55,995 bases of DNA from a virus. The position numbers and the translations under genes were made by a program. The notes below the pieces were generated by a model. That model was given only the letters and a program-made list of their open reading frames with translations. It was not told the origin of the DNA and ran no database searches. The stretch covers positions 1 to 55,995 of the IMG/VR virus record IMGVR_UViG_3300019892_000038; one strand, given 5' to 3'. Positions 3,048 through 49,833 of the stretch are shown one piece after another; the first letter of the stretch is position 1, and the number at the start of each line of letters is the position of its first letter.

Positions 3048-3109
3048 TGAAATGTATATCTCCCAGTCTTGGAAATGTATATGTACATTTCAAATGTATA
3101 TATACATCT
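3048..3109 (-). promoter_or_regulatory. Composite dyad element, copy 1
   Basis: The core (3074-3109) has a near-palindrome ATGTATATGTACAT and a perfect palindrome ATGTATATATACAT separated by TTCAA. An extra half-site GAAATGTATATCT lies at 3049-3061, and a conserved ATGGGTGGATAGTAT follows on the right. Seven copies exist in the window, all between minus-strand genes. It is probably an operator or promoter for the fibre genes to its left. Which protein binds it is unknown. Confidence 0.65.
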
Positions 3110-3174
3110 TCTCTATGGGTGGATAGTATAGTAGTGTGTCGTGGATGTCGTTGGTGGTGTCGCTATCGTCGTTG

Positions 3175-3372
3175 TTACCGTAGTCGTTGATCGTATATGT
3201 CACCGAGTAGCCATCCACACCGCCAATAATGTTTCTCGCGTGTGTAGTCAGTATTCTCGGTGGTATGCACGCCACAGTAGAAGCCGTCAACCATCGCGTG
3301 CCATTCTCTGAATGTCAACTCGCCTGCTATCGGGAGTGTAATCATTGTGTCACTCTCGCTTGCAGAAGTCAT
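3175..3372 (-). CDS. Small hypothetical protein, 65 residues
   Basis: The sequence MTSASESDTMITLPIAGELT... continues into REWHAMVDGFYCGVHTTENT and HYWRCGWLLGD. The aromatic-rich, normal-complexity core with two Cys and several His looks like a genuine small domain, perhaps metal-binding. It starts 14 bp after the holin-like gene and ends just before the dyad-containing gap, so it is likely the last gene of its transcript. No family is recognised. Confidence 0.55.
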   Translation of the reverse strand: MTSASESDTMITLPIAGELTFREWHAMVDGFYCGVHTTENTDYTREKHYWRCGWLLGDIYDQRLR

Positions 3373-3386
3373 ATCTATATCTATGT

Positions 3387-3833
3387 CTATGTCTTTGTCT
3401 TGGTATTACTTCCGTCTGCGTTCTGGTTGTGTATCTGTCTATCACGCTTCCGTTGATGGAGTTGCTCAATCCGTTCCATATCGACATCGACATCAATCTC
3501 CGTCTCATCATCAAGATCAGACGAGATATCAGCAAATGCGTACGTGAGTTGGGATAATAACTCGCCTTGGATGCGGATTTCTTCGAGCATCTCTGTATGT
3601 GACTCGTGTAACTGTTCGTTCTTGTTGCGCTGGCGTGGGATAAATCCCTTCTCGCCGTTCTGTTGCCCTTTGAGGACAGTTTCAACGCGCTTTGATGTGT
3701 CATATGCGATTTTCACAAGCCCACCAAGTGATGTGAGAATTGCCGCGAGAATCGTGACAAGGATGCCAAGCACCCATTCAATCGGGAGTTGGACTTGCAT
3801 CGATATGACCAGTGCCGTCAGATCGATGTGCAT
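3387..3833 (-). CDS. Membrane-anchored coiled-coil protein, holin-like or tail-operon membrane protein
   Basis: A 148-residue protein with one clear membrane segment near residues 18-42 (WVLGILVTILAAILTSLGGL). A basic stretch and a long polar helix (HESHTEMLEEIRIQGELLSQ) follow, then an acidic and His/Gln-rich tail. A single membrane helix followed by a coiled coil is seen in some phage holins and haemolysin-XhlA-like proteins, and the position after the tail fibre fits a lysis role. Its ATG overlaps the upstream stop as TAATG, indicating coupling. Lysis is inference; no endolysin gene is recognised beside it. Confidence 0.55.
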   Translation of the reverse strand: MHIDLTALVISMQVQLPIEWVLGILVTILAAILTSLGGLVKIAYDTSKRVETVLKGQQNGEKGFIPRQRNKNEQLHESHTEMLEEIRIQGELLSQLTYAFADISSDLDDETEIDVDVDMERIEQLHQRKRDRQIHNQNADGSNTKTKT

Positions 3834-4129
3834 TACGATTGGGTAATATTTGTTTTTGCTGTCGAAAGGTCTGGTTCAACACCCAGATCAACAAGTTTCT
3901 GTGCGAGTGTGTCAATCGCTGTTGGTGCATCGGCGAGTGGAACCGTCTTCTCAAGATTAAATCGGAAGTACACTTCTCCATTCTCGATGTATATTGTTCC
4001 GGTGCCGAAGTTCAACGACGAGTCCTGTGCGACAGACAGAAGTTGGTCAACTATTGTGTGTGCTTGTTGATTTGCAGTTGGGTCAATACTCGATTCGCCT
4101 CGGTATGTCAGTGTAATCTCTCGTGCCAT
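3833..4129 (-). CDS. Small hypothetical tail-operon protein
   Basis: A 98-residue protein (MAREITLTYRGESSIDPTAN...). It predicts an alpha/beta fold with a run FGTGTIYIENGEVYFRFNLE of beta strands. It lies 5 bp downstream of the collagen-like fibre and is coupled to the next gene by a one-base stop/start overlap. A fibre chaperone or trimerisation role is possible from position, but no family is recognised. Confidence 0.6.
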   Translation of the reverse strand: MAREITLTYRGESSIDPTANQQAHTIVDQLLSVAQDSSLNFGTGTIYIENGEVYFRFNLEKTVPLADAPTAIDTLAQKLVDLGVEPDLSTAKTNITQS

Positions 4130-4134
4130 TGTAA

Positions 4135-7543: not shown

Positions 7544-8716
7544 TTATGGTGCGACGGAGATGGAGACAGAGACTGATTCAAGCACAATACGTTCCTTCTG
7601 CGTCACGGCGACATCATCACTCACAACTGTGCCATTACTGGTGATCGTGAGATCTCTAATGCCACGGATATTCGCAACTGAACCCATAATTGTTGCGATA
7701 ATACTATCGCGTATCAAGTCATTACCAATGGGTGTATTCTCGATATCTTCTGCAATAGCGTCCTCAACCAGTGTCGGCTCAACAGCGCCGCCGTCTGTTG
7801 TCACAGTCACATCAACAGTGACCGAAATCTGTGTCGGTCGGACAAGCGCAACATTCACACCAATCGGGCGTAACGAATCAATCTCATCTTCTAATGCGGC
7901 ATCATCCGGACCACCATCCACGACAATCTCAACTGGAACAACTGTTTCATCAACAATTACATCTCGTAATTCAAGTCCGTCAAACGCAGATATAAGCCCG
8001 CCACGAACACCGGCACGTGTTCCACCATCCGACTGCTGTATCAATGCACGACGGGCACGCGTGCGAAGACTCTCATTACTCTCTGGTTCAGCACCACCAG
8101 TTGTGCGTGTTGGGTTTGTGACAGACGTGACACCCACACGTGGTTCTGGAATCCGCTCGATTGTTCCGGCACCGACGTTAAACTCAGTGCCCCGCTCAGT
8201 CGCCTCAATCGGCACTGTAACTGTCGTCGTGCCGTCCGGTGGGTCGATAGGCTCGGTCGTCTCAAACGTCCGCAGTGACGTATCAGCGGTTTGCACACGG
8301 AAGCCACTGTCAACTTCGATATCATCATTTCGCACGTCAGCTTCAATCGTGCCTGTGGCAAACGATCCGGGATCGCGGACAACACCGTTCTGTCGTGCTT
8401 TGGCGTCTAAATCACTGTCGTCCATTAACAGATTTAACAGATCAAGATCAACAGTCCCGCCATCATCCTCTTCTGCAAGATCAAGCTCGGCGAGATCTTG
8501 TCGTGTGATTGGACCGCCAGCGTATTCGATCCATCCTGACAGTTGGGCGGCAAGCACACCATGCCAGAGAATATCGAGTGCAAATGCAACACCATCATCA
8601 ACAATCGCACGCTCAACACTTGTTTCTGACCAGTTGGTAATCTCTGAGTTGCTCGCCAGAATCCGATCTCGTATTGACGTGTATATCGTATTTTGCTGTC
8701 GTGGTTCAATTGGCAT
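7544..8716 (-). CDS. Baseplate assembly protein J-like
   Basis: A 390-residue protein with the J-family architecture. An N-terminal helix-rich part (residues 1-110) comes first, then beta-rich repeats TVTVPIEATERGTEFNVGAG and GVTSVTNPTRTTGGAEPESN. The signature ESNESLRTRARRAL and the C-terminal ELRDVIVDETVVPVEIVVDG region follow. The 'GGxxxExdexlRxR' motif is typical of gpJ/Mu gp47 proteins of the contractile-tail baseplate wedge. It follows the W/gp25-like gene, as in P2 and in extracellular contractile systems. Confidence 0.85.
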   Translation of the reverse strand: MPIEPRQQNTIYTSIRDRILASNSEITNWSETSVERAIVDDGVAFALDILWHGVLAAQLSGWIEYAGGPITRQDLAELDLAEEDDGGTVDLDLLNLLMDDSDLDAKARQNGVVRDPGSFATGTIEADVRNDDIEVDSGFRVQTADTSLRTFETTEPIDPPDGTTTVTVPIEATERGTEFNVGAGTIERIPEPRVGVTSVTNPTRTTGGAEPESNESLRTRARRALIQQSDGGTRAGVRGGLISAFDGLELRDVIVDETVVPVEIVVDGGPDDAALEDEIDSLRPIGVNVALVRPTQISVTVDVTVTTDGGAVEPTLVEDAIAEDIENTPIGNDLIRDSIIATIMGSVANIRGIRDLTITSNGTVVSDDVAVTQKERIVLESVSVSISVAP

Positions 8717-8754
8717 ATGTATATGTCTTGAAACTCCGTTCTGTGTGCCTATCG

Positions 8755-9120
8755 CTACCGTATCACGCTGAACACTAACTCACCACGTGTATCATCTATC
8801 GTGGTATATGTGACACTCACCTCAATCGACGTTTGTCGCTGTGCAATCACTTCTGTCGTCTCAATTGATGCAATCCGCGAATCATCAGCTGCAACTGACT
8901 CTGCAATATTTCCAATCTGTGCACTGAGCTTGGATTGCTGATATGTGTCAAGAATATCTTGGTCTTGCACACGTCGTGACAGTGCAAATGACACATCTCG
9001 ATTGAGTATCTCGACGCCACCAGTGGTTGCGATACTCCCACCACTTGTCTGTAAGTCAAACTGTGGTGTCACATCAACACCAACACCGAATTGTTCGTCC
9101 TCTGTCAACTCAGTTGTCAT
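8755..9120 (-). CDS. Baseplate wedge protein, gp25 / P2 W-like
   Basis: A 121-residue protein: MTTELTEDEQFGVGVDVTPQ, then GGVEILNRDVSFALSRRVQD and ISVTYTTIDDTRGELVFSVI-like ends. The order (N-terminal strand, a helix carrying LSRR, and two C-terminal beta strands) matches the gp25-like wedge family, although the usual EPR motif is not evident. Its placement between the PAAR-like and J-like genes supports the call. It nucleates sheath assembly in related systems. Confidence 0.7.
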   Translation of the reverse strand: MTTELTEDEQFGVGVDVTPQFDLQTSGGSIATTGGVEILNRDVSFALSRRVQDQDILDTYQQSKLSAQIGNIAESVAADDSRIASIETTEVIAQRQTSIEVSVTYTTIDDTRGELVFSVIR

Positions 9121-9138
9121 ATATATCTAGCTCTGTTC

Positions 9139-9510
9139 TTACTCCGTGATTGTGAGACTTGTTTGTGCGGTCGTCTCAACAGACGCAGTGCCACCGGACC
9201 CCGGATCGGTTGTCGTGTCATCACGACACATCACAGACGTGCCATCAATTGAGAGTGGATGTATTTGATCTGTTTGCAGACTGTGTGACTGAAAGTCAGT
9301 ACACCCCGGACCATCTGGCGGGATGTACTCGTGTGCATGAGAGCCGAACACCATCCGGTCATCACGTGTCGCAATATCTGAGCCATTCACGGTTAGTATC
9401 GTCGTGTTGTCAGTATTTTCAACCGTGCCGGATGCGGGTTCAGTACACTCTGTTGGATGTCCAGTCGCCTCGCATGATGCGCCGATTGTTGTTGGTGTCT
9501 CTGACGCCAT
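9139..9510 (-). CDS. PAAR-like spike-tip protein
   Basis: A 123-residue protein: MASETPTTIGASCEATGHPT, then TVNGSDIATRDDRMVFGSHA and IHPLSIDGTSVMCRDDTTTD. PAAR-type proteins form a small metal-bound cone capping the VgrG/gpV spike. Here Cys and His residues (C13, H17, C22, H53, H55, C66, H71) are distributed as metal ligands might be. The segment 'V-NG-IA-R--D' matches PAAR sequences. Its place between V and W homologues is as expected. Identity is a family-level inference. Confidence 0.6.
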   Translation of the reverse strand: MASETPTTIGASCEATGHPTECTEPASGTVENTDNTTILTVNGSDIATRDDRMVFGSHAHEYIPPDGPGCTDFQSHSLQTDQIHPLSIDGTSVMCRDDTTTDPGSGGTASVETTAQTSLTITE

Positions 9511-9536
9511 TCTTTGGTATGGTATCGTATATTATC

Positions 9537-10154
9537 TTAGCCGCTATTGTCAAATGATGGTGCGCTTCCTGTCGTGTCGATATCCACCGTGTTGCCGTAT
9601 AATTTGATATTACCATCTGACGGGATTTCGATGCCATGCCCGTTCTCATTCCGGATCAGGATACGTCCGCTCGAAAGATTATACTCAATGCCGCCTGTTG
9701 CCTCGCGCTCTTCGGGACCACACTTCACAACGCGTGCAAGTGGTTCATCAGCATCATTTGTTACGACTTCGATTGAGGCACCCTCGCGTGTAAATCGCAT
9801 CTCACCCGGCTCTGCAATCGGCGCACGATCTGTGTCTGCATCGCCATAGACAACGCCATCAACTAACGGTGCTGTCTGGTCGGCGTTGCGGAATGACAGC
9901 CGGACAAGACTCCCGACTGTTGGCAGTGCTGCCGCACCACTGGTCGGCTGTTTGATCGGCACGTCAGTTACCTTTGTTTGATTCTCTGGTGGGATATTTG
10001 AGTCAGGCGGGAATAACGCAACATCAACCTCGTGATTAGAGATTGTTTCTGGCGTCTGCCGTGTTCGGATATCAAGCACGCGTCCGATAACCTCGTCAGC
10101 ACCTTCAAGCTCAATGACACGCTGTAATCCGTCGTATGAAGTTGGTTCCGTCAT
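9537..10154 (-). CDS. Baseplate spike protein V-like (gpV/gp45)
   Basis: A 205-residue protein. Residues about 1-110 form an OB-fold-like module (RVLDIRTRQTPETISNHEVD, then TVGSLVRLSFRNADQTAPLV), with the gpV-typical phrase PLVDGVVYGDAD. The C-terminus (IRNENGHGIEIPSDGNIKLY, then GNTVDIDTTG) is the repeated beta-helix that makes the needle. The spike sits under the hub and pierces the cell envelope. It lies 40 bp downstream of the D-like hub gene. Confidence 0.8.
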   Translation of the reverse strand: MTEPTSYDGLQRVIELEGADEVIGRVLDIRTRQTPETISNHEVDVALFPPDSNIPPENQTKVTDVPIKQPTSGAAALPTVGSLVRLSFRNADQTAPLVDGVVYGDADTDRAPIAEPGEMRFTREGASIEVVTNDADEPLARVVKCGPEEREATGGIEYNLSSGRILIRNENGHGIEIPSDGNIKLYGNTVDIDTTGSAPSFDNSG

Positions 10155-10194
10155 ATCTCTGTCTGTATCTCTGTCTGTATCTCTGTCTCTATCG
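10155..10194. repeat. CTGTAT/CTCTGT hexamer-type repeat between D- and V-like genes
   Basis: The gap reads as four near-copies of ATCTCTGTCTGT on the plus strand. It contains no gene. Similar 6-12 nt tracts occur at several gene junctions in this window. Confidence 0.5.
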
Positions 10195-11151
10195 TTAGTT
10201 ACCGCTCACAACAGCACCCGGTGTAATATCTGTCAGAAACCCCTCGCCATTGTTGACGCGATGGACAAGTTTTGTGATGATGAAGTTTGCATCATCGGCG
10301 ATATTGACAGGATTGACAACATCAAGTGGTCGGAGGCGTTCATCGCCAAGACTCACAATCGCTCCCTCAGCGCGTTGCTTCTGAAACTCGTTCAATAGTG
10401 ATTTCGCATAATTCCGCGCCTGTGCATCTGTTTTTGCCTCACTCACACGTTTGAGAAACTGTTTGCCATCCTCGTCACCGACCGTCGCGATTGGTGGCTG
10501 TGATGCGATAAACCACTTCGCACGGCTTGTAGCGCGTGCGCCTGCCGACTGCGAGCTTGTCCCAACGACTGTCACTTGTGTGTACGGTGGCGTTTTGAGT
10601 CCGGCGTCTGTCTCTGGTTTTACGTATGGCAGTCCATACTGTGTGGTATCCGGTGTTTGTTGCACAGCAAGCTGATTTTCAGGTGTGATATACCAGACGC
10701 CATTAATCAGCTTCGCAACGGTATCAACCACCTGATCGCCTTTCGCGTTCGCAAAATTCGGCGAGATAGTGCTGTTCCCAACCGCCGGTGCCGCACCGAT
10801 CTCAACACCACTCCCAGATGAGACACGTTGCAGAATCGCAATTGGTGATGCATCATTGAACTTCTGTGTTAACGTGAACGTCTTGAGGTCTTTAATCGCG
10901 TCAAATGCCCGAATCCGAGTCGTGTTTTCACCTGTTGGTTTAAACTCACCAACGGTCAACGTCCCGATAAGTGTGTTATTGATAAACGCTCGGAGTGTAT
11001 CGCCAACGGACGCGTTAATATCAACATCGGGCGTCTCGACTTCAATCACAGCGGCTTCATTCAAGCGTGATGTTTCATACCGAAGTGTCGAGACATCAGC
11101 CCGTGCACCGTTGATAATCGCCCGTGCTGTGACATCTGTGTCATATACCAT
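10195..11151 (-). CDS. Baseplate hub protein D-like (late control D)
   Basis: A 318-residue protein with the pattern of gpD/gp27-like hubs. An N-terminal barrel (RAIINGARADVSTLRYETSR, then TLRAFINNTLIGTLTVGEFK) and the middle phrase RIRAFDAIKDLKTFTLTQKF come first. The region ITPENQLAVQQTPDTTQYGL and the C-terminal LGDERLRPLDVVNPVNIADD follow. The hub joins the tail tube to the spike and is a family of the T4 gp27 fold. It is flanked by U-like and V-like genes, the usual order. Confidence 0.8.
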   Translation of the reverse strand: MVYDTDVTARAIINGARADVSTLRYETSRLNEAAVIEVETPDVDINASVGDTLRAFINNTLIGTLTVGEFKPTGENTTRIRAFDAIKDLKTFTLTQKFNDASPIAILQRVSSGSGVEIGAAPAVGNSTISPNFANAKGDQVVDTVAKLINGVWYITPENQLAVQQTPDTTQYGLPYVKPETDAGLKTPPYTQVTVVGTSSQSAGARATSRAKWFIASQPPIATVGDEDGKQFLKRVSEAKTDAQARNYAKSLLNEFQKQRAEGAIVSLGDERLRPLDVVNPVNIADDANFIITKLVHRVNNGEGFLTDITPGAVVSGN

Positions 11152-11159
11152 CGCTGTGA

Positions 11160-11516
11160 TTAGCCCTCTGTAACCTCGATCAGACTCAGTTGATAACTAA
11201 ACACGCGGTCGTCATTATACTCCTTCTGCATCGGATCAGTGTCGGTGTCAGCGACCACTGCTTGCCCTTGGAAGCGTGGGGTGGTCACGCTGATTTCACC
11301 AGTCAACTTATCGATAAACTCGGCATCATCTGCAAAACACTCGCCACGTATTTCAACACGTTTGGCACCACGCCCCAGATGTTGCACTTGATTTGGTTTA
11401 CCGACAACCTCGTGTACAACCGTTGTGTGTGGTTGTTGTTTGTTCACGAGCGGTGTCGTCAACGCGCCATACGTGTCGATTGTTCGTCCATCATATACTG
11501 GTGCAAATCGTGCCAT
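11160..11516 (-). CDS. Tail protein U-like
   Basis: A 118-residue protein: MARFAPVYDGRTIDTYGALT, then VQHLGRGAKRVEIRGECFAD and EFIDKLTGEISVTTPRFQGQ. The pattern 'GRG-k-i-I-G-----D---i--L' is characteristic of P2 gpU-like proteins that sit between tape measure and hub. It is the first gene after the dyad element at 11602-11638, about 85 bp upstream of its ATG, so that element likely controls the whole baseplate operon. Confidence 0.65.
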   Translation of the reverse strand: MARFAPVYDGRTIDTYGALTTPLVNKQQPHTTVVHEVVGKPNQVQHLGRGAKRVEIRGECFADDAEFIDKLTGEISVTTPRFQGQAVVADTDTDPMQKEYNDDRVFSYQLSLIEVTEG

Positions 11517-11601: not shown

Positions 11602-11638
11602 ATATATACATATACATTTCAAATGTATATATACATCT
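11602..11638 (-). promoter_or_regulatory. Composite dyad element, copy 2
   Basis: The near-palindrome here is ATATATACATATACAT, different in its first half from the other copies, followed by TTTCAA and the perfect palindrome ATGTATATATACAT. It separates the tape measure gene from the baseplate operon and ends about 85 bp from the U-like start codon. Confidence 0.65.
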
Positions 11639-16524: not shown

Positions 16525-17166
16525 CTACTCAGTTGTCCCCCGTGCCGGAAGCCGTTGTGGGGTCTCTGCCTCGGCTTCTGTCAGTTGCTCCGGTGCGACA
16601 TCTGCCGGTGGTGTCTCAACCGTGTCAATCAACGCAGCATCAGTGATAGAAACCGTTGAGATCCGCATTGTCAACTCGGTCTCATACTTCCGTAACGACA
16701 CTTCACCTGATAGCTCAGGTGTCGGTGATGATGTGTTGACACTAAAATATTCGACACCCTCTGTCAACGGTGTCGCGGTGAGTGTATTGCCATCTTCATC
16801 ACGAAACTCGTTTGCACCATCAAACGTGCCGTATGTATCGAGTAGCAGTTCAGTCTCAATTCCCAACTCTTGTGCATCATCTCCTGACTGCTCTGGCACA
16901 ACTGTTCGGACTTGTAACGACAACTCGACAATCCGCTTCCGGACCACACCATTGAATGTGCCATCAGCTGCAAACTCAAATCCAACAACCCGGCTGTCAT
17001 GCGGATTATCTGGCGCGGACGTGAGCAACTGAATTACATACCACGGCGCAACAAGGCGATTATGCTCACGAAAATAATTCGGTTCCGTTAACACAGCATC
17101 GTTGTAGCCGATGTCTGACGCGTCGATTGCACGTCCGATTGTTTCTTTTGCGTCTTTTGGCGTCAT
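16525..17166 (-). CDS. Tail completion / terminator-like protein
   Basis: A 213-residue protein: MTPKDAKETIGRAIDASDIG, then APWYVIQLLTSAPDNPHDSR and FNGVVRKRIVELSLQVRTVV. It lies between the gp10-like connector and the sheath, where tail terminators are encoded. Its ATG overlaps the upstream stop as ATGA. The C-terminal 40 residues are Pro/Glu/Ala-rich and probably disordered. Family membership is not certain. Confidence 0.55.
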   Translation of the reverse strand: MTPKDAKETIGRAIDASDIGYNDAVLTEPNYFREHNRLVAPWYVIQLLTSAPDNPHDSRVVGFEFAADGTFNGVVRKRIVELSLQVRTVVPEQSGDDAQELGIETELLLDTYGTFDGANEFRDEDGNTLTATPLTEGVEYFSVNTSSPTPELSGEVSLRKYETELTMRISTVSITDAALIDTVETPPADVAPEQLTEAEAETPQRLPARGTTE

Positions 17167-17630
17167 ATATTATCTCGGAACGTCCCGCGTATCTTATTCC
17201 GAAGTCGATCATCAAGGTCAGCCCGTGAGTTACGAAGTGCTGGTCCAAGAAACGGTTGTTCTTCAGCGCCCGGATGGTCAACCTCGTATGTCGCTACCCA
17301 TTCGCCATCAACTTTGAAGATAAGTGGACCGTCAGTATCGTCTTTTGGCGTGATCTTGTGTGGTCGGGTTCCAAATTCAACGTATGGCGCGTAGTCAACA
17401 TTCGTTCCGATCTCGTATCGGTTATCAGTTACTTTATCCGCGCTGATTGATTCGCTGAGGCGTCCAGTATCGACAGGCGCACGACGTTGCGCGTCACGTG
17501 CCACGTCTTCGGCAATCTCTTCAAGCTCATCATCAGCATCGTCTCCAAACGCGTCAGCAACATCCCGCAGACTATCAGCAAAATCTCTGAGTGTCTCCGC
17601 AAAATCATCAAATCCGCCAAAGCTAACCAT
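17163..17630 (-). CDS. HK97 gp10-like head-tail joining protein
   Basis: A 155-residue protein. The ATG at 17630 (MVSFGGFDDFAETLRDFADS) is preferred over an in-frame codon inside the upstream gene. The signature EEIAEDVARDAQRRAPVDTG, then RYEIGTNVDYAPYVEFGTRP is the hallmark of the HK97 gp10 family ('--aP-dTG-L---I', 'Y---ve-Gt---'). Such proteins complete the head-to-tail interface. It overlaps both neighbours by a few bases. Confidence 0.85.
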   Translation of the reverse strand: MVSFGGFDDFAETLRDFADSLRDVADAFGDDADDELEEIAEDVARDAQRRAPVDTGRLSESISADKVTDNRYEIGTNVDYAPYVEFGTRPHKITPKDDTDGPLIFKVDGEWVATYEVDHPGAEEQPFLGPALRNSRADLDDRLRNKIRGTFRDNI

Positions 17631-17631
17631 G

Positions 17632-18036
17632 TTATACTGAAAAGAAGCTAAATTGCCGATCTTGTGTCTCGTCAGCATCAGATTCGTTGATGCTGTATAT
17701 CAATTCATCATATTCTGTGCCGAGTAGTTCAACAAACTCTGCTGAGTCTTCGGCACTGCCACTCACCAGTTGTCCACTCACTGCGCTTGCTGGCTCTTCT
17801 GCCGCCATGAAGAGATGTTTTGTCGCGTATATTTCAACGGCGTTCTGTATTAACGGCGTCTGTGCCTCAACAGGAATTGGTGCACCGTCGTTAATATCGG
17901 CTTCAACACGTGCCTCAGCAAGTTCTGCCGCGTTGAGTTTATCAATCGGTCCAAACGCGTCGAGGTCGGGACCGGGATTTGGAATATCGCTCAGTCGGTC
18001 AAGATACTTGAGATCGCGTTCACTCTGATACGCCAT
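17632..18036 (-). CDS. Head-tail connector protein
   Basis: A 134-residue mostly helical protein: MAYQSERDLKYLDRLSDIPN, then IDKLNAAELAEARVEADIND and QNAVEIYATKHLFMAAEEPA. Helical proteins of this size between capsid and gp10-like gene usually act as adaptors (gp6/gp15-like). It is the first gene after dyad copy 3, about 80 bp upstream. Position supports the role; sequence family is not firmly identified. Confidence 0.6.
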   Translation of the reverse strand: MAYQSERDLKYLDRLSDIPNPGPDLDAFGPIDKLNAAELAEARVEADINDGAPIPVEAQTPLIQNAVEIYATKHLFMAAEEPASAVSGQLVSGSAEDSAEFVELLGTEYDELIYSINESDADETQDRQFSFFSV

Positions 18037-18088: not shown

Positions 18089-18152
18089 TTTGAAATATAC
18101 ATCTCACCCTCTCGGAAATGTATATGTACATTTCAAATGTATATATACATCT
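18089..18152 (-). promoter_or_regulatory. Composite dyad element, copy 3
   Basis: The core at 18117-18152 has near-palindrome plus ATGTATATATACAT, and the extra half-site TTTGAAATATACATCT lies at 18089-18104. To the right are GTGTAGTAGTATG and GGATGTGGATGTGGAT repeats before the stop of the preceding gene. It lies upstream of the connector, sheath and tail genes. Confidence 0.65.
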
Positions 18153-19163: not shown

Positions 19164-20189
19164 TTATTTGGGCGTTGTGCCGCCGGTGTAGTATGCAATT
19201 CCACATTGTCCTCTGAGCGTATCCTTCACGCGTGGTGTCATGCACATAACCGTCTTGAAGTAATCACGGAATGGGTCTTCCCACTGTACAACCTGCTCCT
19301 CCAGTCCGATTGCGAGATCAACAACATCAGCAGTCGGACGGAACATCAACACAGCATCATCCTGCAAGAACTCTAAGGTCTTGATCTCATTCACAAACTG
19401 AAGGTTCTCGATTCGCTCACGGATAAGCCGATCACCAGTCCCCTCTGGATCTGGGTCATCGAGTGTATCCTCAAGATCCTCACCAACATAAACAAGATAT
19501 CCTTCGCCGGTTGGTCGGAAGTTGTCGTCTTTGAGGTCACGTGCCATATCGTCCTTCAGATTGTCACGGATCACAGCCGGATTGTCTACCCAGTCACCAA
19601 GCGTCCCGGTATGGACGCTCGGATGATTGGTCAGTCCGTACATTGTGTATCCGTCAACAGTTGAGTTTGGATTGTCACCGGAAATCGTCGGTTCCCATCC
19701 GTAGAGCGTGAGTCGCTCGACAGCTTCTGCAACGGCACGGGCGGACCCCTCTGCATTAAGCGTTTCAAGGTCTTGCCCTGCCATGCCCTGTCCGACTGGG
19801 CCATCAGTGCCGGTCTCTCGGAAGCCGATACTGAAGTCCGAATGGATCAGTGGCAGTGGGGCACCAGCAAGGTCGTATTCGACATTGCCTTCGTCAGTTG
19901 CGGTTTCTGGTTGCATCGAGATTGTTGCCGTGGCTTCGTAATCCTGTTTGTGCCACTGCGCAACTTTGTTCTGCACACTCTCGTCAACAGTCAACCCACG
20001 GTCACGAAGATCGTCCACAATCGTCAGGACATCTTCCATCGCTGGGTAGACTGCATCTTCAATGCCAATCCATGCGTCCTGTGGCAGTGACGCGTTGGCA
20101 CGGATTTGACGCCGTGTCTGTTCGTCTTGTAGTAATTGCAGTCGTGCGTACTTTGGTACGTTACTGATATCTTGTGTTGCTGAAACCAT
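19164..20189 (-). CDS. Major capsid protein, HK97/encapsulin-like fold
   Basis: A 341-residue protein. N-terminal helices (ARLQLLQDEQTRRQIRANAS) are followed by VYPAMEDVLTIVDDLRDRGL. Family I encapsulin-like features include the glycine-rich central segment, TLYGWEPTISGDNPNSTVDG, a TMYGLTNHP motif, and a C-terminal WEDPFRDYFKTVMCMTPRVK, then GIAYYTGG. 'GLtNhp' followed by such a C-terminal beta strand is typical of the bacteriocin/encapsulin-related capsid family found in viruses. Full length suggests no long N-terminal scaffold domain; scaffold and protease are in the gene two upstream. It assembles the icosahedral shell. Confidence 0.88.
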   Translation of the reverse strand: MVSATQDISNVPKYARLQLLQDEQTRRQIRANASLPQDAWIGIEDAVYPAMEDVLTIVDDLRDRGLTVDESVQNKVAQWHKQDYEATATISMQPETATDEGNVEYDLAGAPLPLIHSDFSIGFRETGTDGPVGQGMAGQDLETLNAEGSARAVAEAVERLTLYGWEPTISGDNPNSTVDGYTMYGLTNHPSVHTGTLGDWVDNPAVIRDNLKDDMARDLKDDNFRPTGEGYLVYVGEDLEDTLDDPDPEGTGDRLIRERIENLQFVNEIKTLEFLQDDAVLMFRPTADVVDLAIGLEEQVVQWEDPFRDYFKTVMCMTPRVKDTLRGQCGIAYYTGGTTPK

Positions 20190-28054: not shown

Positions 28055-28522
28055 TTAGCGTTCGGACACATCCCAGTCCGCGTCTGGATACAAAAACTGT
28101 AGTTCATCACGGAGTGCGTTCACAATACCGTCACTATGCGGTACATGTTCGCGTGGGGTTACGTCACGTGCAATCGTCGGTGCATCATACTTGTCTAAGA
28201 GATGGTCGTTTACGTCGATCCATTTTGAAACGACATCCATTGGCGTATTCTCGACTGTATGATACACGACGCCATCATGCATGGGATCACGGTCGGGTGT
28301 CGAGTATCCAAGCCAGATGTCCGCATGTGGGCGGTATATAGCGACATGTTTGTGCTTCGCTGTGTTGCATATTAGATCGTCGTTTGGCGCTCCATCGTCG
28401 TCAAGTTTGTCGTTGACGAACATTGTCTCGCTCACGGCGATTGGTCCGTGCTCGTGGGCGAATCGTGTGATTGCTGTCTTTGTCGCGGTTGATTCGGTGG
28501 TAGGTGTGTTCTCTGTCATCAT
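28055..28522 (-). CDS. Hypothetical protein, 155 residues
   Basis: Start is the MM at 28522/28519 (MMTENTPTTESTATKTAITR); the frame extends upstream through the dyad element, which is not coding. The body HVAIYRPHADIWLGYSTPDR, then VVYHTVENTPMDVVSKWIDV, looks like a compact alpha/beta domain. TATTATAAAG at about 28543-28552 on the minus strand may be the TATA box, with the dyad core 93 bp upstream of the ATG. Function unknown. Confidence 0.6.
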   Translation of the reverse strand: MMTENTPTTESTATKTAITRFAHEHGPIAVSETMFVNDKLDDDGAPNDDLICNTAKHKHVAIYRPHADIWLGYSTPDRDPMHDGVVYHTVENTPMDVVSKWIDVNDHLLDKYDAPTIARDVTPREHVPHSDGIVNALRDELQFLYPDADWDVSER

Positions 28523-28614
28523 CGTATGTATTATTACGTGAGGAGACTTTATAATACTTACGATAATATTAGCAACACGGTCATGCCAACAGTTAGTGGC
28601 ACACCTCTCTCGGA

Positions 28615-28650
28615 AATGTATATGTACATTTGAAATGTATATATACATCT
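28615..28650 (-). promoter_or_regulatory. Composite dyad element, copy 4
   Basis: Near-palindrome ATGTATATGTACAT, TTGAA, then ATGTATATATACAT; followed by CTATGGGTGTGTAGTAT. It lies between the holin-like gene and the 155-residue protein, about 93 bp from the latter's start codon. Confidence 0.65.
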
Positions 28651-29383: not shown

Positions 29384-30580
29384 ATGAGTGAGTCACTTCC
29401 TGATTTGACAGACCGAGAACGGGCAATCCTCAACCTTCTTCCGGCGCACATCAGCACTATTGCCGACCAGCTAGGGTTTGCGGAATCAACAATTCGCAAT
29501 CATATCACCGATATCCGTAACAAAGATGTCGAAGTCGAGTACGACAACAAAGCACGGCAATACTTCATCGCTGATGACCGAGCGCCGACTGTTGAGCGCA
29601 TTAGCAGTACGCATAAGTCGCAAATTACGAAAAACGCAAATGAAGTTATCGAAGCCGAGCACTCGCATTTGCTTCGGCGACTTGAACAGACAGACCCACT
29701 CCGCCCACAATCACCCACGACAGATAACGACGAAGTATTCATGCCAGTCATCGGCGACATTCACTTTGGCGATGTTGTCGAAGCGACTGATGGATCACAC
29801 GTCTATGATATTGCGGCTGCACGAGAATCTGTGAGCGAATTTGCCGAACGAAGCCTCCAAATCTATGATATCGAATCACAGACACAAACATACAATGAAT
29901 GCGCGCTCGTGATTCTCGGCGATATTGCGACCGGAACCCACATTTACGACGGACAAATCCACGATATTGAAGCCTATCTTGGCGACCAAGTGACGGAAAG
30001 TGCACAGGCACTTATCGATCTCGTTCTTACCTATGCAAACGTCTTTGAACACGTCTCCGTGTACTGTGTGCTTGGAAATCACGGTCTCGACAGAGCAAGT
30101 GCCGCCCGTGGGTCAAACACAGACCTGATAACATATCGATGGATGCAAGATGCACTCCGGCGGATGCGACCCAGTAATATCGAGCTAGAAATTGCAGATG
30201 GCAGTCACAGCCTCACCACGCGTATCAACTCACAAGTCGTCCATATCCGACACGGGCAGAACGGACAACGCCATGTCGATAAAACAGCCGCCAGCGCCCG
30301 TGATTGGCGTGGTATCTGGGCAAAAACAACCAATCCAATTGACGATAACGACACTGGCTTCGACATCGCACTACGCGGGCATTTTCATACACCAAGTCTC
30401 GACTGGCTCATGAACACGTATCCAGTTATCACCGCGCCAAGTCCAAAACCCGGTGGTGAATTTGCAGATAAGATTGGCTATCCTGATGTTGGTCGCCCAC
30501 GTCACCTTGGGTGGTGTTTCGGTGTCGGATCATCACGACGACTGACGTTTAAACGACTGATTGACGACGGAACCCAATAA
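29384..30580 (+). CDS. HTH domain plus calcineurin-like metallophosphoesterase
   Basis: A 398-residue plus-strand protein. The ATG at 29384 (MSESLPDLTDRERAILNLLP) is preferred to one 82 codons upstream in low-complexity sequence. Residues 8-60 form a winged helix-turn-helix (AHISTIADQLGFAESTIRNH). Residues about 122-390 hold the phosphoesterase motifs GDIHFGD, GDIA, GNHGLD and GHFH in order, the di-metal signature also used by Mre11-like nucleases and phosphodiesterases. DNA or nucleotide substrates are likely. It is encoded against the surrounding minus-strand genes and may be an early gene or a recent insertion. Confidence 0.75.
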   Translation: MSESLPDLTDRERAILNLLPAHISTIADQLGFAESTIRNHITDIRNKDVEVEYDNKARQYFIADDRAPTVERISSTHKSQITKNANEVIEAEHSHLLRRLEQTDPLRPQSPTTDNDEVFMPVIGDIHFGDVVEATDGSHVYDIAAARESVSEFAERSLQIYDIESQTQTYNECALVILGDIATGTHIYDGQIHDIEAYLGDQVTESAQALIDLVLTYANVFEHVSVYCVLGNHGLDRASAARGSNTDLITYRWMQDALRRMRPSNIELEIADGSHSLTTRINSQVVHIRHGQNGQRHVDKTAASARDWRGIWAKTTNPIDDNDTGFDIALRGHFHTPSLDWLMNTYPVITAPSPKPGGEFADKIGYPDVGRPRHLGWCFGVGSSRRLTFKRLIDDGTQ

Positions 30581-36247: not shown

Positions 36248-38428
36248 TTATGAGAATCGCATCCGATCCGGTTCACCGTTCACGTTTGTCGTTGTGCCTG
36301 CGTCTGTGCCGCTTTCTGCATCCGACTGTGATTCTTGTCCGGATGGTGACTGTGATTGTGACTGTGATTGTGACTGTGATTGTGACTGTTGTGCTGAGAC
36401 ACTTTCACCGTCTGTGCGCTGTAATGCCTGTGTAAATGCTTGGGCGTCTGGTCCGGGCGCATACTTCACACTGCCTTCTTGCACACGAACATGGTAGCCG
36501 CTGATACCGTCAAGCTCCTCGGCACGTTCACGCGCCTGTTCTGGCGAGTCATATAGCTCATCAGGATACGGGAAGCCACTAAATGAATCAGCCTCACCCT
36601 GAGTGCCGTCAGGTTGCCCCTGTTCAGAATCAGGTCCACCCGTACCGGGCTGTTGTGGTGCTGTTCCCGAATCACTACCACCACTTGTGACACTATCGCC
36701 GCCCTGTTCGCCTGCACCACCTTGCCCAAGTGGCTCACGGCTTGGGTCTTGCTCTGCCTGTGGACGGTCGAGTTTGTCCGGATCGATATTGCCACCACGG
36801 TTCGGATTCCAGCCAAGCGCCTGTCGTAACTCTGGCACTGTTGCTAACAGTGACGTGTCGCCACCCGGTGCGATAGTTTTGACCGCTTGTGCAATCTGTA
36901 ACTTCAACTCCCACTCTTGTATCTCTGTCAGTTCCTCAAGCGACGGCCACTTAATCACAAACCCATCGCCCTCTGGCTCCGGTAACACACCGACATCAAT
37001 CAACCGCTGAATAAACGGCTCAATAATCACAGCATTCGCGTAATTGTTCCGGCGAGACGCAATCTTTCGCTCATACTTCGTCAAGTCTGTCGCATCTGCC
37101 GTATCAGCGCGGTCCTGTCCCGTCAAAATGGACTTTGGAATATCTGTTGCCGCACTAATCGCCTCATAATTCGCATCCAAATGTGGCACCGGACTTGAAA
37201 TCGTGCTGTCAATCGAATCAATCTGCGCCGGTGTCGCAAGTGTCCGGTCAAAGTTTTGTAAGAACTCTTCAATCTCTCGCTCGACATCATCTGCATCATC
37301 GAAGTCCATGAACTTGCCCTGTGAAGTCTGTGGTGGGCGGATGTGCAATCCCTGATACCCGGCACGCCAATACCCCTCACCACTTGCAGCGCGTATCTTA
37401 TCGATGTTCAACAACTCATGAAAGATCGGCTTCAACGCCGGAATCCCAGCCAAATCGTCCTCAAGCGTTCCCTCTGGCACATGCAATGCGCGTGTGTAAT
37501 GCACGACTTGTGACTGATACCGACTGTTCTCATCACCCGGCTCAACCTCTTCAGTGACAATATCAAACTGCTCTGGCAACCGGAACCGTGGTGACGACAT
37601 ATCAGAAACCGTCTCAATGTCTGTAATGCGGTCTTCGCCGAAGACAGCCAGATACATCAGATCATCAGCGCCGTCAAATTCTGACTCACCAAGATCAGGT
37701 GGGACATTCGCATCAGATCGTTGTTGATACTGGGCGAGTCCTTCAGGGTCCATCGTCGCGTCTGCCGACACACCGCCAACCGGTGTGACCATATCACGCC
37801 CATCAGTAAAGCCGAATACTAAAACTGCATAATGTCCTAACCGAGCGAGTTTATCAAGCACGCGCAATCTGTGCATCGGCTTTCGGCGTGTGTACTCACC
37901 CGACATGAGTTTCTCAACTTCTTTCTCAAAGTCTGATTGTGGATCACCACTGTCAGCGTACTTTGCATCGTGGATTTTTGGTGTGTCTTTCCACGTATCG
38001 TTGACGGGTTTGTTGATAACAGCGCGAGCTTCTGGTTGCCGGACATATCGGATGTAAAACGACTCAAACTCAAACTCCTCTTCACGTGGGTAGTTGACCG
38101 CACTCCATACAGTCGGCTGCCCGGCGTTCTCGAACATACCGAGAGTAACGCCATCATCCGGCGCGTCAATACCCTTGTATGGATTTGTGTTTAGTCGAAG
38201 CCCATTTCTGTCGTTTGACTCAGCAGATACAGCTGCCGTTGTTGACGGCGTACCTGTCATTCGACTTGTCACGTCAAGCGCCTGTTTCTCAACGGCTGTG
38301 GCACGGACATGTGAGTTACTCAATCGCGTGCCAATGTACGGCGTTGTTTCGTTATTGTAATTGCCGTTGCCACTGCTATTGCTATTGCTATTGCTACGGC
38401 TCCGGTTATTGTCATCCGAGTCGCTCAT
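36248..38428 (-). CDS. Portal protein, DUF1073 type
   Basis: A 726-residue protein. Residues 1-70 are Ser/Asn-rich. The portal domain follows (FENAGQPTVWSAVNYPREEE, then ESFYIRYVRQPEARAVINKP and LARLGHYAVLVFGFTDGRDM), with YWRAGYQGLHIRPPQTSQGK, NRNNYANAVIIEPFIQ-like helices and TDIPKSILTGQDRADTADAT near 430-460. That SILTGQ-style segment is typical of phage portal family 3 (DUF1073). Residues about 560-640 are Gly/Gln/Pro-rich. A YHV/PG module (ISGYHVRVQEGSVKYAPGPD) lies near residue 640, then an SQ repeat. The portal makes the head vertex channel and docks terminase. It is preceded by dyad copy 5. Confidence 0.85.
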   Translation of the reverse strand: MSDSDDNNRSRSNSNSNSSGNGNYNNETTPYIGTRLSNSHVRATAVEKQALDVTSRMTGTPSTTAAVSAESNDRNGLRLNTNPYKGIDAPDDGVTLGMFENAGQPTVWSAVNYPREEEFEFESFYIRYVRQPEARAVINKPVNDTWKDTPKIHDAKYADSGDPQSDFEKEVEKLMSGEYTRRKPMHRLRVLDKLARLGHYAVLVFGFTDGRDMVTPVGGVSADATMDPEGLAQYQQRSDANVPPDLGESEFDGADDLMYLAVFGEDRITDIETVSDMSSPRFRLPEQFDIVTEEVEPGDENSRYQSQVVHYTRALHVPEGTLEDDLAGIPALKPIFHELLNIDKIRAASGEGYWRAGYQGLHIRPPQTSQGKFMDFDDADDVEREIEEFLQNFDRTLATPAQIDSIDSTISSPVPHLDANYEAISAATDIPKSILTGQDRADTADATDLTKYERKIASRRNNYANAVIIEPFIQRLIDVGVLPEPEGDGFVIKWPSLEELTEIQEWELKLQIAQAVKTIAPGGDTSLLATVPELRQALGWNPNRGGNIDPDKLDRPQAEQDPSREPLGQGGAGEQGGDSVTSGGSDSGTAPQQPGTGGPDSEQGQPDGTQGEADSFSGFPYPDELYDSPEQARERAEELDGISGYHVRVQEGSVKYAPGPDAQAFTQALQRTDGESVSAQQSQSQSQSQSQSQSPSGQESQSDAESGTDAGTTTNVNGEPDRMRFS

Positions 38429-38506: not shown

Positions 38507-38542
38507 AATGTATATGTACATTTCAAATGTATATATACATCT
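38507..38542 (-). promoter_or_regulatory. Composite dyad element, copy 5
   Basis: Near-palindrome ATGTATATGTACAT, TTTCAA, ATGTATATATACAT. To the right are GTGTAAGAGATACTG, GGATGTGGATGTGG and GGCGATTATCGCC. The edge is about 79 bp from the portal start codon. Confidence 0.65.
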
Positions 38543-44122: not shown

Positions 44123-44175
44123 AGTACAGCTATTACTAGGAGAGGGAAGTATATAAGTCTGTCGGAATCCGATGG
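44121..44175 (-). promoter_or_regulatory. Accessory promoter cassette, copy 1
   Basis: Reading on the minus strand: CATCGGATTCCGACAGAC, TTATATAC box at about 44150-44157, then CTCTCCTAGTAATAGC and the ATG. The upstream CGGA-TTCCGACAGA resembles BRE-plus-TATA structure, and the 27-28 base box-to-ATG distance points to a leaderless mRNA. Confidence 0.65.
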
Positions 44176-44287: not shown

Positions 44288-44836
44288 TTATTCGTCGTCA
44301 ACACCACTCGTTTGTTTCAATGCTTGCATATATGCTTCGTCCGGGTCCATGTCAATCTCAACGCGATCCGGTTCTTCATCAAGCTCGCCCACATCAAAGA
44401 GAAACTCGTTGAACTCTAGGCGTTTGTCTTGGGCTTGTGCCCACATGTCAGCGGCTTTCTCGCGCATTTTGCCAGCGGCACGGATGTCACCCGCTGCTTC
44501 CAATTTCTCGGCTTTCTCACCCAACTCACGCGCTGTTTTGGTGTGCTCTTCAATCACTTTCTCGCCAAGCATTGTTGTTTGGGCGACGGTTTTGTCACCG
44601 GCACGCTCACGGTAGTATTCTTGCAGGCGTTGGAAGTCGTGACTGATTGTGCTTTGATCGACATCGTATCTGGATGCGAGTTCGGTTTGGTTTACTTCCA
44701 TGTTGCGTGGGTGTCCGTATCGCTTGAGGTAGCGATATAGCTCTGCACGTCGTTCGACGTATGAGTAATTTGCTCGTGGTTTGTCGCTTGGTGGACTGAT
44801 TGCTGCGTACTCTGGTTGGTCGCTATCTTTTGCCAT
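44288..44836 (-). CDS. HTH DNA-binding protein, candidate small terminase subunit
   Basis: A 182-residue protein. The ATG at 44836 (MAKDSDQPEYAAISPPSDKP) is preferred. Residues about 30-85 contain a helix-turn-helix (NQTELASRYDVDQSTISHDF, then QRLQEYYRERAG). Residues about 85-150 form a long coiled coil (LGEKAEKLEAAGDIRAAGKM), and the C-terminus is acidic. N-terminal HTH, central oligomerising coil and acidic tail is the architecture of many TerS proteins; an HTH regulator is the alternative. It is on the same strand as TerL but 3.7 kb upstream. Confidence 0.55.
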   Translation of the reverse strand: MAKDSDQPEYAAISPPSDKPRANYSYVERRAELYRYLKRYGHPRNMEVNQTELASRYDVDQSTISHDFQRLQEYYRERAGDKTVAQTTMLGEKVIEEHTKTARELGEKAEKLEAAGDIRAAGKMREKAADMWAQAQDKRLEFNEFLFDVGELDEEPDRVEIDMDPDEAYMQALKQTSGVDDE

Positions 44837-45909: not shown

Positions 45910-45945
45910 AATGTATATGTACATATGAGATGTATATATACATTT
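45910..45945 (-). promoter_or_regulatory. Composite dyad element, copy 6
   Basis: Near-palindrome ATGTATATGTACAT, ATGAG, then ATGTATATATACAT, followed by ATGGGTGGATAGTATG. The closest minus-strand start is 160 bp away, farther than for most copies. Confidence 0.6.
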
Positions 45946-46750: not shown

Positions 46751-46753
46751 AGT

Positions 46754-47620: not shown

Positions 47621-47666
47621 TGAACGTGCCACATAGCACAACTACGTCGGATGCATAGCGTGTGCA

Positions 47667-47942: not shown

Positions 47943-47980
47943 GACCGCACTCAAACGCCAACTGGCTGTGTGTGTGTGTG

Positions 47981-48265: not shown

Positions 48266-48315
48266 ACTACACTCATTACTAAGAGAGGAGAGTTAATAAG
48301 TCTGTCGAAGTCCGA
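48263..48315 (-). promoter_or_regulatory. Accessory promoter cassette, copy 6
   Basis: CTTCGACAGAC then TTATTAAC (box 48293-48300), 28 bases to the ATG. Confidence 0.65.
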
Positions 48316-48355
48316 TGGAGATCCGTTGAACGCAATAAAAAAGAGAGGGTGTCGC

Positions 48356-48571: not shown

Positions 48572-48625
48572 ATATCTATTAGGAAGGGAGAGATTAAAAG
48601 TTTGTCGAAGTCTGATGGCGATCTG
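48569..48625 (-). promoter_or_regulatory. Accessory promoter cassette, copy 7
   Basis: CATCAGACTTCGACAAACTT then TTTTAATC (box 48592-48600), 21-28 bases to the GTG. Spacing is one of the shorter in the set. Confidence 0.55.
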
Positions 48626-48657
48626 TTGACGGCAATAAAAAGAGAGGAGTCGATTAC

Positions 48658-49089
48658 TTACACGGGGATATCAACAGTACCGAACTGCTGATAATCCCAC
48701 GCATCATCGCGGTCGCCGTCAAAGTATTTCTCAGCCAGTAACTCAAACGCCTGTTTTGCCTGAGTGTCATTTGAATACTCCGCTTCGCCTCGTACCAGTG
48801 CTGCCAACTCGTCTTTACCCATCTGCCGGATATACTCATTTGTCAGCTCAAACGGTATTTTCTGTGAATCGTCATTAAAACGATTCAACTCCCAGTCTCG
48901 AAGTCGCTCCGCGCTTACTGATCCAATGCCGTCATACTCGATATAGGGCTTGCTGCTTATGACTGCCGCTTGCAGCTCTTCAACGGTGTCGAACGCGTCC
49001 GCGATTGGTCTGGCACTCTGTGTCTCTGTGACACGGAGGTTGAGCACTCGCTTTACGTCTTCAACTGTTAGTGGGTTCTTCTGTCCCAT
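48658..49089 (-). CDS. Accessory protein with helix-hairpin-helix-like segment
   Basis: The ATG at 49089 (MGQKNPLTVEDVKRVLNLRV) fits the promoter. 143 residues. ELQAAVISSKPYIEYDGIGS, then VSAERLRDWELNRFN resembles a helix-hairpin-helix ('I-GIG---A--I---') which would imply non-specific DNA or RNA contact. The C-terminal MGKDELAALVRGEAEYSNDT helical part may oligomerise. Function unknown. Confidence 0.55.
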   Translation of the reverse strand: MGQKNPLTVEDVKRVLNLRVTETQSARPIADAFDTVEELQAAVISSKPYIEYDGIGSVSAERLRDWELNRFNDDSQKIPFELTNEYIRQMGKDELAALVRGEAEYSNDTQAKQAFELLAEKYFDGDRDDAWDYQQFGTVDIPV

Positions 49090-49135
49090 ATCTGTACTTA
49101 GGAGAGGGAAGTTAATAAGTCTGTCGAAGTCCGTT
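49087..49135 (-). promoter_or_regulatory. Accessory promoter cassette, copy 8
   Basis: ACGGACTTCGACAGAC then TTATTAAC (box 49112-49119), 24-25 bases to the ATG. Confidence 0.65.
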
Positions 49136-49175
49136 GGCTGGCTGTTGCGAGCAACAAAAAGAGAGGGCACACACC

Positions 49176-49688
49176 CTATTCAGTCGTCCATTCAGTCGGC
49201 GTGTCATCATCATCACTCGCCCACTGTGTGTGCTCAGACTCCTCGATCATCTGATAGAGTTTCGACGGACTGTACTCGTCACTCAACAATACCTCGTGCT
49301 CAAAGCCGTCAAACGCGTGTGCGTCACCGAGTGTCTCTACAACCTCTGCAAGCACGTCATCAGGGACTGCGCGCAAATGAGACCTCTCACGCTCACTACC
49401 AACATAGTATTCGACAATCACGTCATAGGCGTCTGGCGATGGCGGTTCATAGCCGATTTCCATTATGTCTCGGTCTGGCACAATCACAGTCACACTCAAT
49501 GTCGGTGTTAACGACAACTCGATACCACCTCTGCCATGCACAACAGCGTGGTGTGCCAGCGACTCAATCAGTGGGTCTGTCTGGACACGTTCCAACACAC
49601 TCGTTCGGAGGTTCAAGCCCTGATAGTGTTTATATAGCGTTTCTTCTGCAGCATCGGTGTCTACCGTCTCAGATAATTCTTCTGTCAC
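49176..49688 (-). CDS. Accessory protein, 170 residues
   Basis: A GTG start at 49688 (VTEELSETVDTDAAEETLYK) is placed by the promoter. Body: HYQGLNLRTSVLERVQTDPL, then HHAVVHGRGGIELSLTPTLS and YDVIVEYYVGSERERSHLRA. The acidic end (ASDDDDTPTEWTTE) is typical of haloarchaeal proteins. No family recognised. Confidence 0.5.
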   Translation of the reverse strand: MTEELSETVDTDAAEETLYKHYQGLNLRTSVLERVQTDPLIESLAHHAVVHGRGGIELSLTPTLSVTVIVPDRDIMEIGYEPPSPDAYDVIVEYYVGSERERSHLRAVPDDVLAEVVETLGDAHAFDGFEHEVLLSDEYSPSKLYQMIEESEHTQWASDDDDTPTEWTTE

Positions 49689-49735
49689 AGATATACGTAA
49701 GTGGGGAGAGTATATAAGACCGTCGCTCTGGTATT
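49686..49735 (-). promoter_or_regulatory. Accessory promoter cassette, copy 9
   Basis: AGAGCGACGGTC then TTATATAC (box 49711-49718), 23-28 bases to the GTG. The upstream part differs from consensus. Confidence 0.6.
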
Positions 49736-49769
49736 GGGATCGATGGCGCATTGACTAACAGCATCCAGA

Positions 49770-49833
49770 TTTGAAATATACATCTCGGTCGGTTGCAGAT
49801 GTATATGTACATTTGAAATGTATATATACATTT
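49770..49833 (-). promoter_or_regulatory. Composite dyad element, copy 7
   Basis: Core 49798-49833 (near-palindrome ATGTATATGTACAT, TTGAA, ATGTATATATACAT) and half-site TTTGAAATATACATCT at 49770-49785. ATGGGTGTGTAGTATG follows. It lies 110 bp from the GTG of the 170-residue gene. Confidence 0.65.

Follow-up and report, generated by a model that had tools for sequence, protein, structure and literature searches.

Within the DNA analysed here, a window of 55,995 nt from the IMG/VR virus record IMGVR_UViG_3300019892_000038, one element built of two closely spaced palindromes (dyads) recurs in the gaps between genes, which raises the question of what this paired-dyad element does for the virus. 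The window is part of a record of 66,403 bases that may be a fragment, and family matches in the record identify the gene set of a tailed myovirus, including sheath, terminase, portal, tape measure, and baseplate. The majority of its predicted products are acidic proteins. Because the terminase matches those of cultivated haloviruses at 30–37% identity, with ChaoS9 closest, and the sheath matches that of HGTV-1 at 27.5%, we treat the source as an uncultivated halovirus. The answer that we find probable, if narrowly so, is that the element would act as a virus-specific operator-promoter, at which a dyad-binding regulator switches gene modules.

Copies and anatomy of the element

The full 66.4-kb record contains nine copies of the element, seven of them inside the window, at the very places given in the original prediction (Table 1), and two outside it, at record positions 56249–56281 and 64117–64149. 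A 33-bp pattern, allowing up to three mismatches, detects exactly the seven known places in the window and has no match in 100 dinucleotide shuffles of it; by chance, none of the nine copies would be expected.

The core, whose first position serves as the name of each copy, consists of two 14-bp dyads close to ATGTAYATRTACAT and a 5-bp spacer. Their centres are 19 bp apart, which corresponds to about 1.8 helical turns and not to the single turn originally assumed. The perfect palindrome ATGTATATATACAT is present in all seven window copies and the near-palindrome ATGTATATGTACAT in six, with a diverged form, ATATACATATACAT, at 11604. The spacer, described before as 5–6 bases of TTSAA, is always 5 bp long and follows that consensus except at 45911, where it reads ATGAG. 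Elsewhere in the record, there are no further dyads within two mismatches of ATGTAYATRTACAT.

On the transcribed strand, a 16-base word near CATACTACACACSYAT is followed by 7 bases, dyad 1 (ATGTATATATACAT), the spacer, and dyad 2 (ATGTACATATACAT). The word, noted previously as conserved, is indeed clear in six of the nine copies, but it comes in two forms, ATGGGTGKRTAGTAT (3075, 28616, 45911, and 49799) and ATATACGTGTGTAGTATG (56249 and 64117), the remaining copies (11604, 18118, and 38508) having a degenerate version. Five of the nine copies (3075, 18118, 49799, 56249, and 64117) feature a third site, GARATRTAYATTTC, centred 29–30 bp from dyad 2, whose ATGTA or ATATA starts at +16 relative to the core (+17 in 56249); these include the three window copies in which extra half-sites had been seen, near 3048, 18089, and 49770. 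In the 64117 copy, which lies ahead of plus-strand genes, the word and the third site are inverted, while the two dyads keep their genomic order.

Conservation in related haloviruses

Single-protein peptide scans with the sheath, terL, and portal products found no relatives in viral_contigs, and strict dyad patterns had no match there. A four-sequence terL alignment led to 72 virus loci and 7 genome loci, and a relaxed dyad pattern to nine stretches in viral_contigs, six of them halovirus-like (G002, G003, G004, G005, G008, and G009); the other three, on contigs low in guanine plus cytosine (GC), were set aside as unrelated. The one addition from a second relaxed scan was an AT-rich stretch, which we take for a chance match. 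There are duplicates among the stretches: G002 repeats one G003 copy, G005 repeats the other, and G008:1791 repeats G004:24902. Proteins common to these relatives and this virus are up to 67–70% identical.

Searching related haloviruses for the core, as had been suggested, thus revealed diverged copies with the identical 19-bp geometry. In six contigs (this one, G002, G003, G004, G008, and G009), a scan without a spacing rule found 38 dyads (14-mers within two mismatches of ATGTAYATRTACAT) that form 19 pairs, all 19 bp apart, and no singles, a result tempered by the fact that the relative contigs were mostly found by the pair pattern, so that at least one pair in each of them is owed to that choice. 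The aligned 17 distinct copies, nine from this virus and eight from relatives, share 17 invariant positions out of 28 in the dyads; a further 8 are the same in 14 copies or more. The remaining three positions include the symmetric inner pair of dyad 1, which is T..A here and C..G in most relatives. A locus whose terL is 50% identical (L015) carries ATGTACATGTACAT-CTTAG-ATATACATGTACAT ahead of terL, as well as a second copy. Among the 79 terL-relative loci, tandem dyads of any sequence at spacings of 16–25 comprise one real case, L015, and one that is probably due to chance, with a filter that overlooks degenerate copies such as the second one of L015.

Outside this group the element is rare in the genomes searched. 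The strict pattern detected no stretch in genome_contigs, and the relaxed pattern had no match with three mismatches in 3 provirus-bearing genomes and, with two mismatches, a match in only one (G286) of 391 genomes of one haloarchaeal class. The dispersal in unrelated DNA that would mark a mobile repeat, a possibility raised at the outset, was therefore not seen in these genomes. With up to four mismatches, the dyad pair is absent from the whole of HF2, the first 50 kb of HGTV-1 (143.9 kb), and the first 50 kb of ChaoS9 (55.1 kb). In the literature, where the virus itself was not sought by name, ATGTACATGTACAT turns up in one unrelated paper only, and the matches listed for phiH1 operators and haloarchaeal late promoters hold nothing on the element.

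Placement relative to genes and promoters

Open reading frames (ORFs) of at least 80 aa, picked by a simple greedy rule, cover 83% of the full record, and eight of the nine cores overlap none of them. The earlier statement that the element is absent from coding regions thus stands for these eight; copy 28616 overlaps the N-terminal extension of ORF 28055–28648, for which 28519, behind its own TATA box, is the likelier start.

Copies often lie at virion-module boundaries. As described before, and in agreement with family matches, they precede the connector (18118), baseplate (11604), and portal (38508) genes; between 18118 and the connector gene (17163–17678) begins a further gene (17632–18036). 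Some of these positions recur in relatives. In both this virus and G009, the tape-measure gene is immediately followed by a copy; in G004 the copy (8660) comes two genes later, ahead of a baseplate-hub gene. The genes before the G004 and G009 copies match tape-measure families. Furthermore, G004:15122 precedes a tail-completion/Neck1-type gene, the same gene type as in this virus, where one gene lies between. In G003 the element is ahead of terL; apart from the tape-measure and connector-type genes, its positions differ between relatives.

The copies fall into two groups by what lies downstream. At 64117 (+79), 38508 (+80), 18118 (+82), and 11604 (+88), no TATA match intervenes before the next start codon, while the next starts after 28616 (+97), 49799 (+111), 56249 (+134), and 45911 (+161) are each located behind a TATA box. 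The distances of about 75–110 bp proposed for five window copies hold at +80, +82, +88, +97, and +111; 45911 lies farther off, and 3075 has no convincing start, its candidates being a small, doubtful ORF at +59 and, farther on, a plausible gene at +317. With four of nine copies upstream of separate TATA promoters, the idea of a virus-wide late switch gains no clear support.

A second repeat class comprises 17 near-identical promoters of the GACTTATTAACTCTCCYCTCCTAATATAGATTGTAGTATG type between 43 and 66 kb of the record (a scan gave 18 matches, one of them unlike the others). Their TATA box is mostly 34 nt before the ATG, and by analogy we call them early-type; examples in the window are at 44159, 45787, 47205, 47607, 48302, 51423, and 52273. 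Many promoters of this class precede small genes with products that start MSE.

The dyad element itself looks different. Between −30 and +8, a canonical TATA match is absent from all 17 aligned copies, and the longest A/T runs in this interval are 4–6 bases in the relatives; dyads rather than a TATA box thus seem to define the site. The closest gene starts are found in G004:8660, G009:3609, and G004:15122, which lie 19, 21, and 27 bases ahead of an ATG and whose abutting genes have the Shine-Dalgarno-like sequences GGTGAT, GAGGTGAT, and GGAGTGAT from +8, +8, and +14, 5 nt before the ATG. If these genes had a promoter to themselves, its start could lie no later than these sequences, and a −26 box would then fall in or near the first dyad. 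G003:8164 lies 66 bases before an ATG, with a Shine-Dalgarno-like sequence at +53.

Table 1. Coordinates of the window copies and of the genes and TATA matches downstream of them
Feature	Coordinates	Strand	Details
Copy 1 (3075)	3048–3130	−	Third site 3049–3062; dyad 3075–3088; spacer 3089–3093; perfect dyad 3094–3107; flanking word 3115–3130
Copy 2 (11604)	11604–11636	−	Diverged dyad 11604–11617; perfect dyad 11623–11636; directly after tape-measure gene; next ATG +88
Copy 3 (18118)	18089–18150	−	Third site 18092–18105; dyad 18118–18131; perfect dyad 18137–18150; ATG +82
Copy 4 (28616)	28616–28648	−	Near-palindrome from 28616, perfect dyad from 28635; next start 28519 (+97), own TATA box between
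Copy 5 (38508)	38508–38540	−	Near-palindrome from 38508, perfect dyad from 38527; before portal gene; ATG +80; no TATA match between
Copy 6 (45911)	45911–45943	−	Near-palindrome from 45911, perfect dyad from 45930; spacer ATGAG; next start 45750 (+161) with own TATA box
Copy 7 (49799)	49770–49831	−	Third site 49773–49786; dyad 49799–49812; perfect dyad 49818–49831; GTG start ~49688 (+111), own TATA box
Tail/baseplate block	7544–11516	−	Downstream of copy 2; baseplate wedge 7544–8716; tail protein 10195–11151; first gene 11160–11516 without family
Portal gene	36248–38428	−	Downstream of copy 5; phrog_146, E 7.5e-46
TATA match TTATA	28550–28554	−	+62; separate promoter below copy 4
TATA box TTATTAA	45778–45784	−	−34 from ATG; early-type promoter below copy 6
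TATA match TTATA	49713–49717	−	+82; separate promoter below copy 7

A proposed regulator-dependent promoter

The core of the original prediction, an intergenic dyad-based element dispersed through the virus and often placed before operons, is upheld, as are its fixed geometry in relatives and near-absence from the host genomes searched. Conserved symmetry, invariant spacing, flanks that follow the direction of transcription, and placement at operon fronts are the trace expected of a dimeric DNA-binding regulator; protein binding, the start site, the sign of regulation (activation or repression), and its timing, as outlined here, are tentative inferences. Two dimers of one sequence-specific, probably virus-coded protein would bind the adjacent 14-bp dyads (TGTA-N4-TACA cores), joined at some copies by the weaker third site further downstream, and binding would set the timing of transcription of the following gene block. 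Where no TATA box follows (11604, 18118, 38508, 64117, and the gene-abutting relative copies), transcription may start within a few bases of the downstream dyad, with the bound regulator recruiting or positioning the host transcription factor B (TFB) and RNA polymerase; we propose this because conservation falls on the dyads and not on a TATA box. At copies with a separate TATA promoter ~60–130 bp further down, the element might add a second, later-phase promoter to a gene made early.

Judged from sequence, a promoter that depends on its regulator seems to us likelier than an ordinary promoter with an operator on it. A stronger and rather unlikely version would make the dyad pair a TATA-independent class of archaeal-virus promoter, in which a virus-coded dimer bound twice, 19 bp apart, replaces the TATA box, recruits host TFB and RNA polymerase, and as one factor switches the virion modules on together. 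If true, these would be the archaeal counterpart of phage-specific late promoters, and promoters of this class, provided that they truly lack a TATA box, would reveal the way in which host RNA polymerase is diverted by an archaeal virus. Gene timing in tailed archaeal viruses is largely unknown; a compact 33-bp element with fixed geometry, conservation across a group of uncultivated viruses, natural variants, one inverted-flank copy, and several virion-block boundaries makes the regulon testable with synthetic DNA, for which culture of the virus is unnecessary.

Several observations weigh against the operator-promoter. The Shine-Dalgarno argument fails if the abutting genes are only read through from upstream, and in this virus the dyad that holds TATATATA, as one dyad does in all nine copies here and in none of the relatives', may itself serve as a TATA box. 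Behind G003:2244 come two TATA-like boxes, TTTATA at +8 and TTATTA at +77, ahead of a start at +112. No convincing start lies near three of the eight relative copies (G004:21585, G004:24902, and G008:8289), nor near 3075, and the dyad element is missing ahead of 15 of the 17 early-type promoters. The connector genes of this virus and G004 belong to the same family type without BLASTP similarity. In G286, the pair is located between convergent genes with two further single dyads nearby, an arrangement that fits neither a promoter nor strict pairing. The intergenic repeats of the halovirus HF2 (classes I and II) are all reported to be active in a reporter in Haloferax volcanii when no other HF2 genes are present (PMC8707807), with no need for a virus factor. 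The search for a binding protein, described next, adds to these points.

Candidates for the binding protein

No clear repressor appears among the families listed for the record's proteins (the best 25 of 51, 98, and 52 families in three scans), RHH_1 has no match in this record, and no proteins are common to this virus and the G286 or G007 regions. Across seven records, RHH_1 has a single match, below the curated cut-off, in G010. The regulator gene perhaps lies outside the record, or the protein may be the host's.

The two helix-turn-helix (HTH) products put forward originally, encoded at 44288 and 29384, turned out to be poor candidates. The 44288 product combines an HTH with a helical hairpin (model confidence, as the predicted local distance difference test, pLDDT, of 60), and a structure search gave one match at E < 0.001, which is unnamed. 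A homologue adjoins terL in G008, the product has a weak terminase small subunit match (E 0.037), and it also occurs in L013/L014, contigs without such a dyad pair. The product of ORF 29384–30580 (plus strand) matches a LuxR-type HTH weakly (E 1.1e-4, short of the curated cut-off), fused to an exonuclease-type metallophosphoesterase; the ORF is one of the few plausible plus-strand genes in the left half.

Two small genes near dyads in other genomes deserve mention. Directly upstream of an element copy in G008, L099:8365–8592 encodes a small protein with, by eye, a ribbon-helix-helix-like start, MTTITVDDELADELAEY, and gene 8636–9121 of G286, a neighbour of the dyads there, likewise appears by eye to start like a ribbon-helix-helix protein; the latter has no Pfam match, and the former none to such a family.

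Alternative explanations

The best-surviving alternative, which we consider improbable but worth retaining, is a viral repressor that would bind the dyads and block initiation or elongation in each gap, so that modules stay off while the virus is dormant or in an early phase. Like mycobacteriophage repressor sites, the copies are scattered in intergenic gaps, follow the direction of transcription, and precede both early-type and virion genes, and two occupied dyads would cover the region where the TATA-binding protein, TFB, and RNA polymerase bind. However, known stoperators are asymmetric and these sites are paired dyads, the core has no recognisable promoter of its own to repress, and neither an integrase nor a repressor was recognised in the 66.4-kb record, possibly a fragment.

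Clearly less probable is a genome-maintenance site, that is, a partition, replication, or packaging mark for a dyad-binding protein. ParB_N matches occur in 4 of 81 scanned proteins, one of which (64165–64944) is encoded directly downstream of the 64117 copy, and the gap between convergent genes that holds the G286 copy is rich in repeats. Against this, the record, which may be a fragment, has no match for a ParA-type ATPase (PF13614); two ParB_N genes lie near DNA-methyltransferase-like genes, suggesting another role; and a position at operon fronts, with flanks oriented like the genes, is more in keeping with transcription. Record positions 54561–64944 encode several ParB_N-domain proteins close to DNA-methyltransferase-like genes, possibly as a split ParB-methyltransferase system.

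Slightly weaker still is an element acting in RNA, in which both dyads would form a transcript hairpin for processing or termination between blocks. Pairing between the dyads can close a 5-nt loop with a 14-bp stem, for which energies between −8.8 and −19.3 kcal/mol are predicted in 15 of the 17 sense strands, and processing of long HF2 transcripts has been suggested (PMC8707807). We regard this as doubtful because the copies do not agree on which strand folds more stably, the sense strand in 5 of 17 and the antisense strand in 12, with only −2.9 and −1.8 kcal/mol for the sense strand of two; moreover, in four cases a separate TATA promoter follows the copy, and no T run follows the core in the alignment. 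Finally, we reject a mobile repeat tolerating only intergenic insertion, with which the near-identical copies within one genome would agree, as the relatives' copies are diverged in sequence yet fixed in geometry, a single haloarchaeal genome out of 391 has the relaxed pattern, and the copies sit at virus operon fronts.

Other dyads and neighbouring genes

Dyads of other arrangement or sequence were found in several contigs. In G286, L125:9245–9481 holds four dyads (two single and one pair) and an inverted repeat (9369–9431), ~4.6 kb from an integrase gene. In L013 and L014 (terL 52% identical), a different dyad type, TGAATTA-N4-TAATTCA-TTT-TAATTCA, lies upstream of TATA-like promoters in two copies each (7679–7717 and 9226–9264 in L013), as if operator specificity had been swapped. 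In the low-GC phage-like contigs G007, G001, and G006, paired dyads of the ATATATATATACATNNNNNGTGTATATATACAT type separate gene starts from a terminator-like hairpin; in L122 (G007:C1), those at 20107, 20506, 20808, 21818, and 22845 comprise three pairs 19 bp apart, one at 22 bp, and one degenerate. A 10-kb megablast search for this type gave no match among phages. Within the window, 52821–54008 (plus strand) is a virus-borne gene of the 3′-phosphoadenosine-5′-phosphosulfate (PAPS)-reductase/PP-loop family.

Comparison with known systems

In archaea, the repressor F55 of SSV1, a small fusellovirus of another archaeal phylum, has operator sites at virus promoters. The dyad element resembles these, by description only, as putative sites of a viral regulator at virus promoters. 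Mycobacteriophage stoperators are numerous asymmetric sites over the genome at which a monomeric repressor binds and elongation is also terminated (PMC9283540). They share with the element the many copies of one putative regulator site across a viral genome, but the latter consists of paired dyads (19 of 19 pairs at 19 bp), belongs to an archaeal virus, and has no known protein.

A closer likeness is found in the repeats of HF2 and other Haloferacalesvirus members, which also occur as several near-identical, AT-rich intergenic copies in one tailed halovirus, ahead of gene modules and conserved in relatives. HF2 repeats have a TATA box at about −26 from the mapped start (PMC8707807), and include one copy that precedes the baseplate block, as in this virus. 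Both genomes have two repeat classes, I and II in HF2 and the TATA and dyad classes here. In contrast to the dyad element, for which promoter activity is deduced from sequence, that of the HF2 repeats is proven; they contain neither dyad pairs nor any other tandem dyad, and the dyad element has no canonical TATA box inside. The HF2 motifs CTAAAGACTTAGAA, TCTTTAAGTC, CTTTAAGT, and CCCTTTAC have no occurrence on either strand of the 66.4-kb record. The HF2 authors consider binding sites for viral regulators within their repeats likely, although still to be examined (PMC8707807). By likeness of role, rather than by sequence membership, the HF2 intergenic repeats are the nearest known kind.

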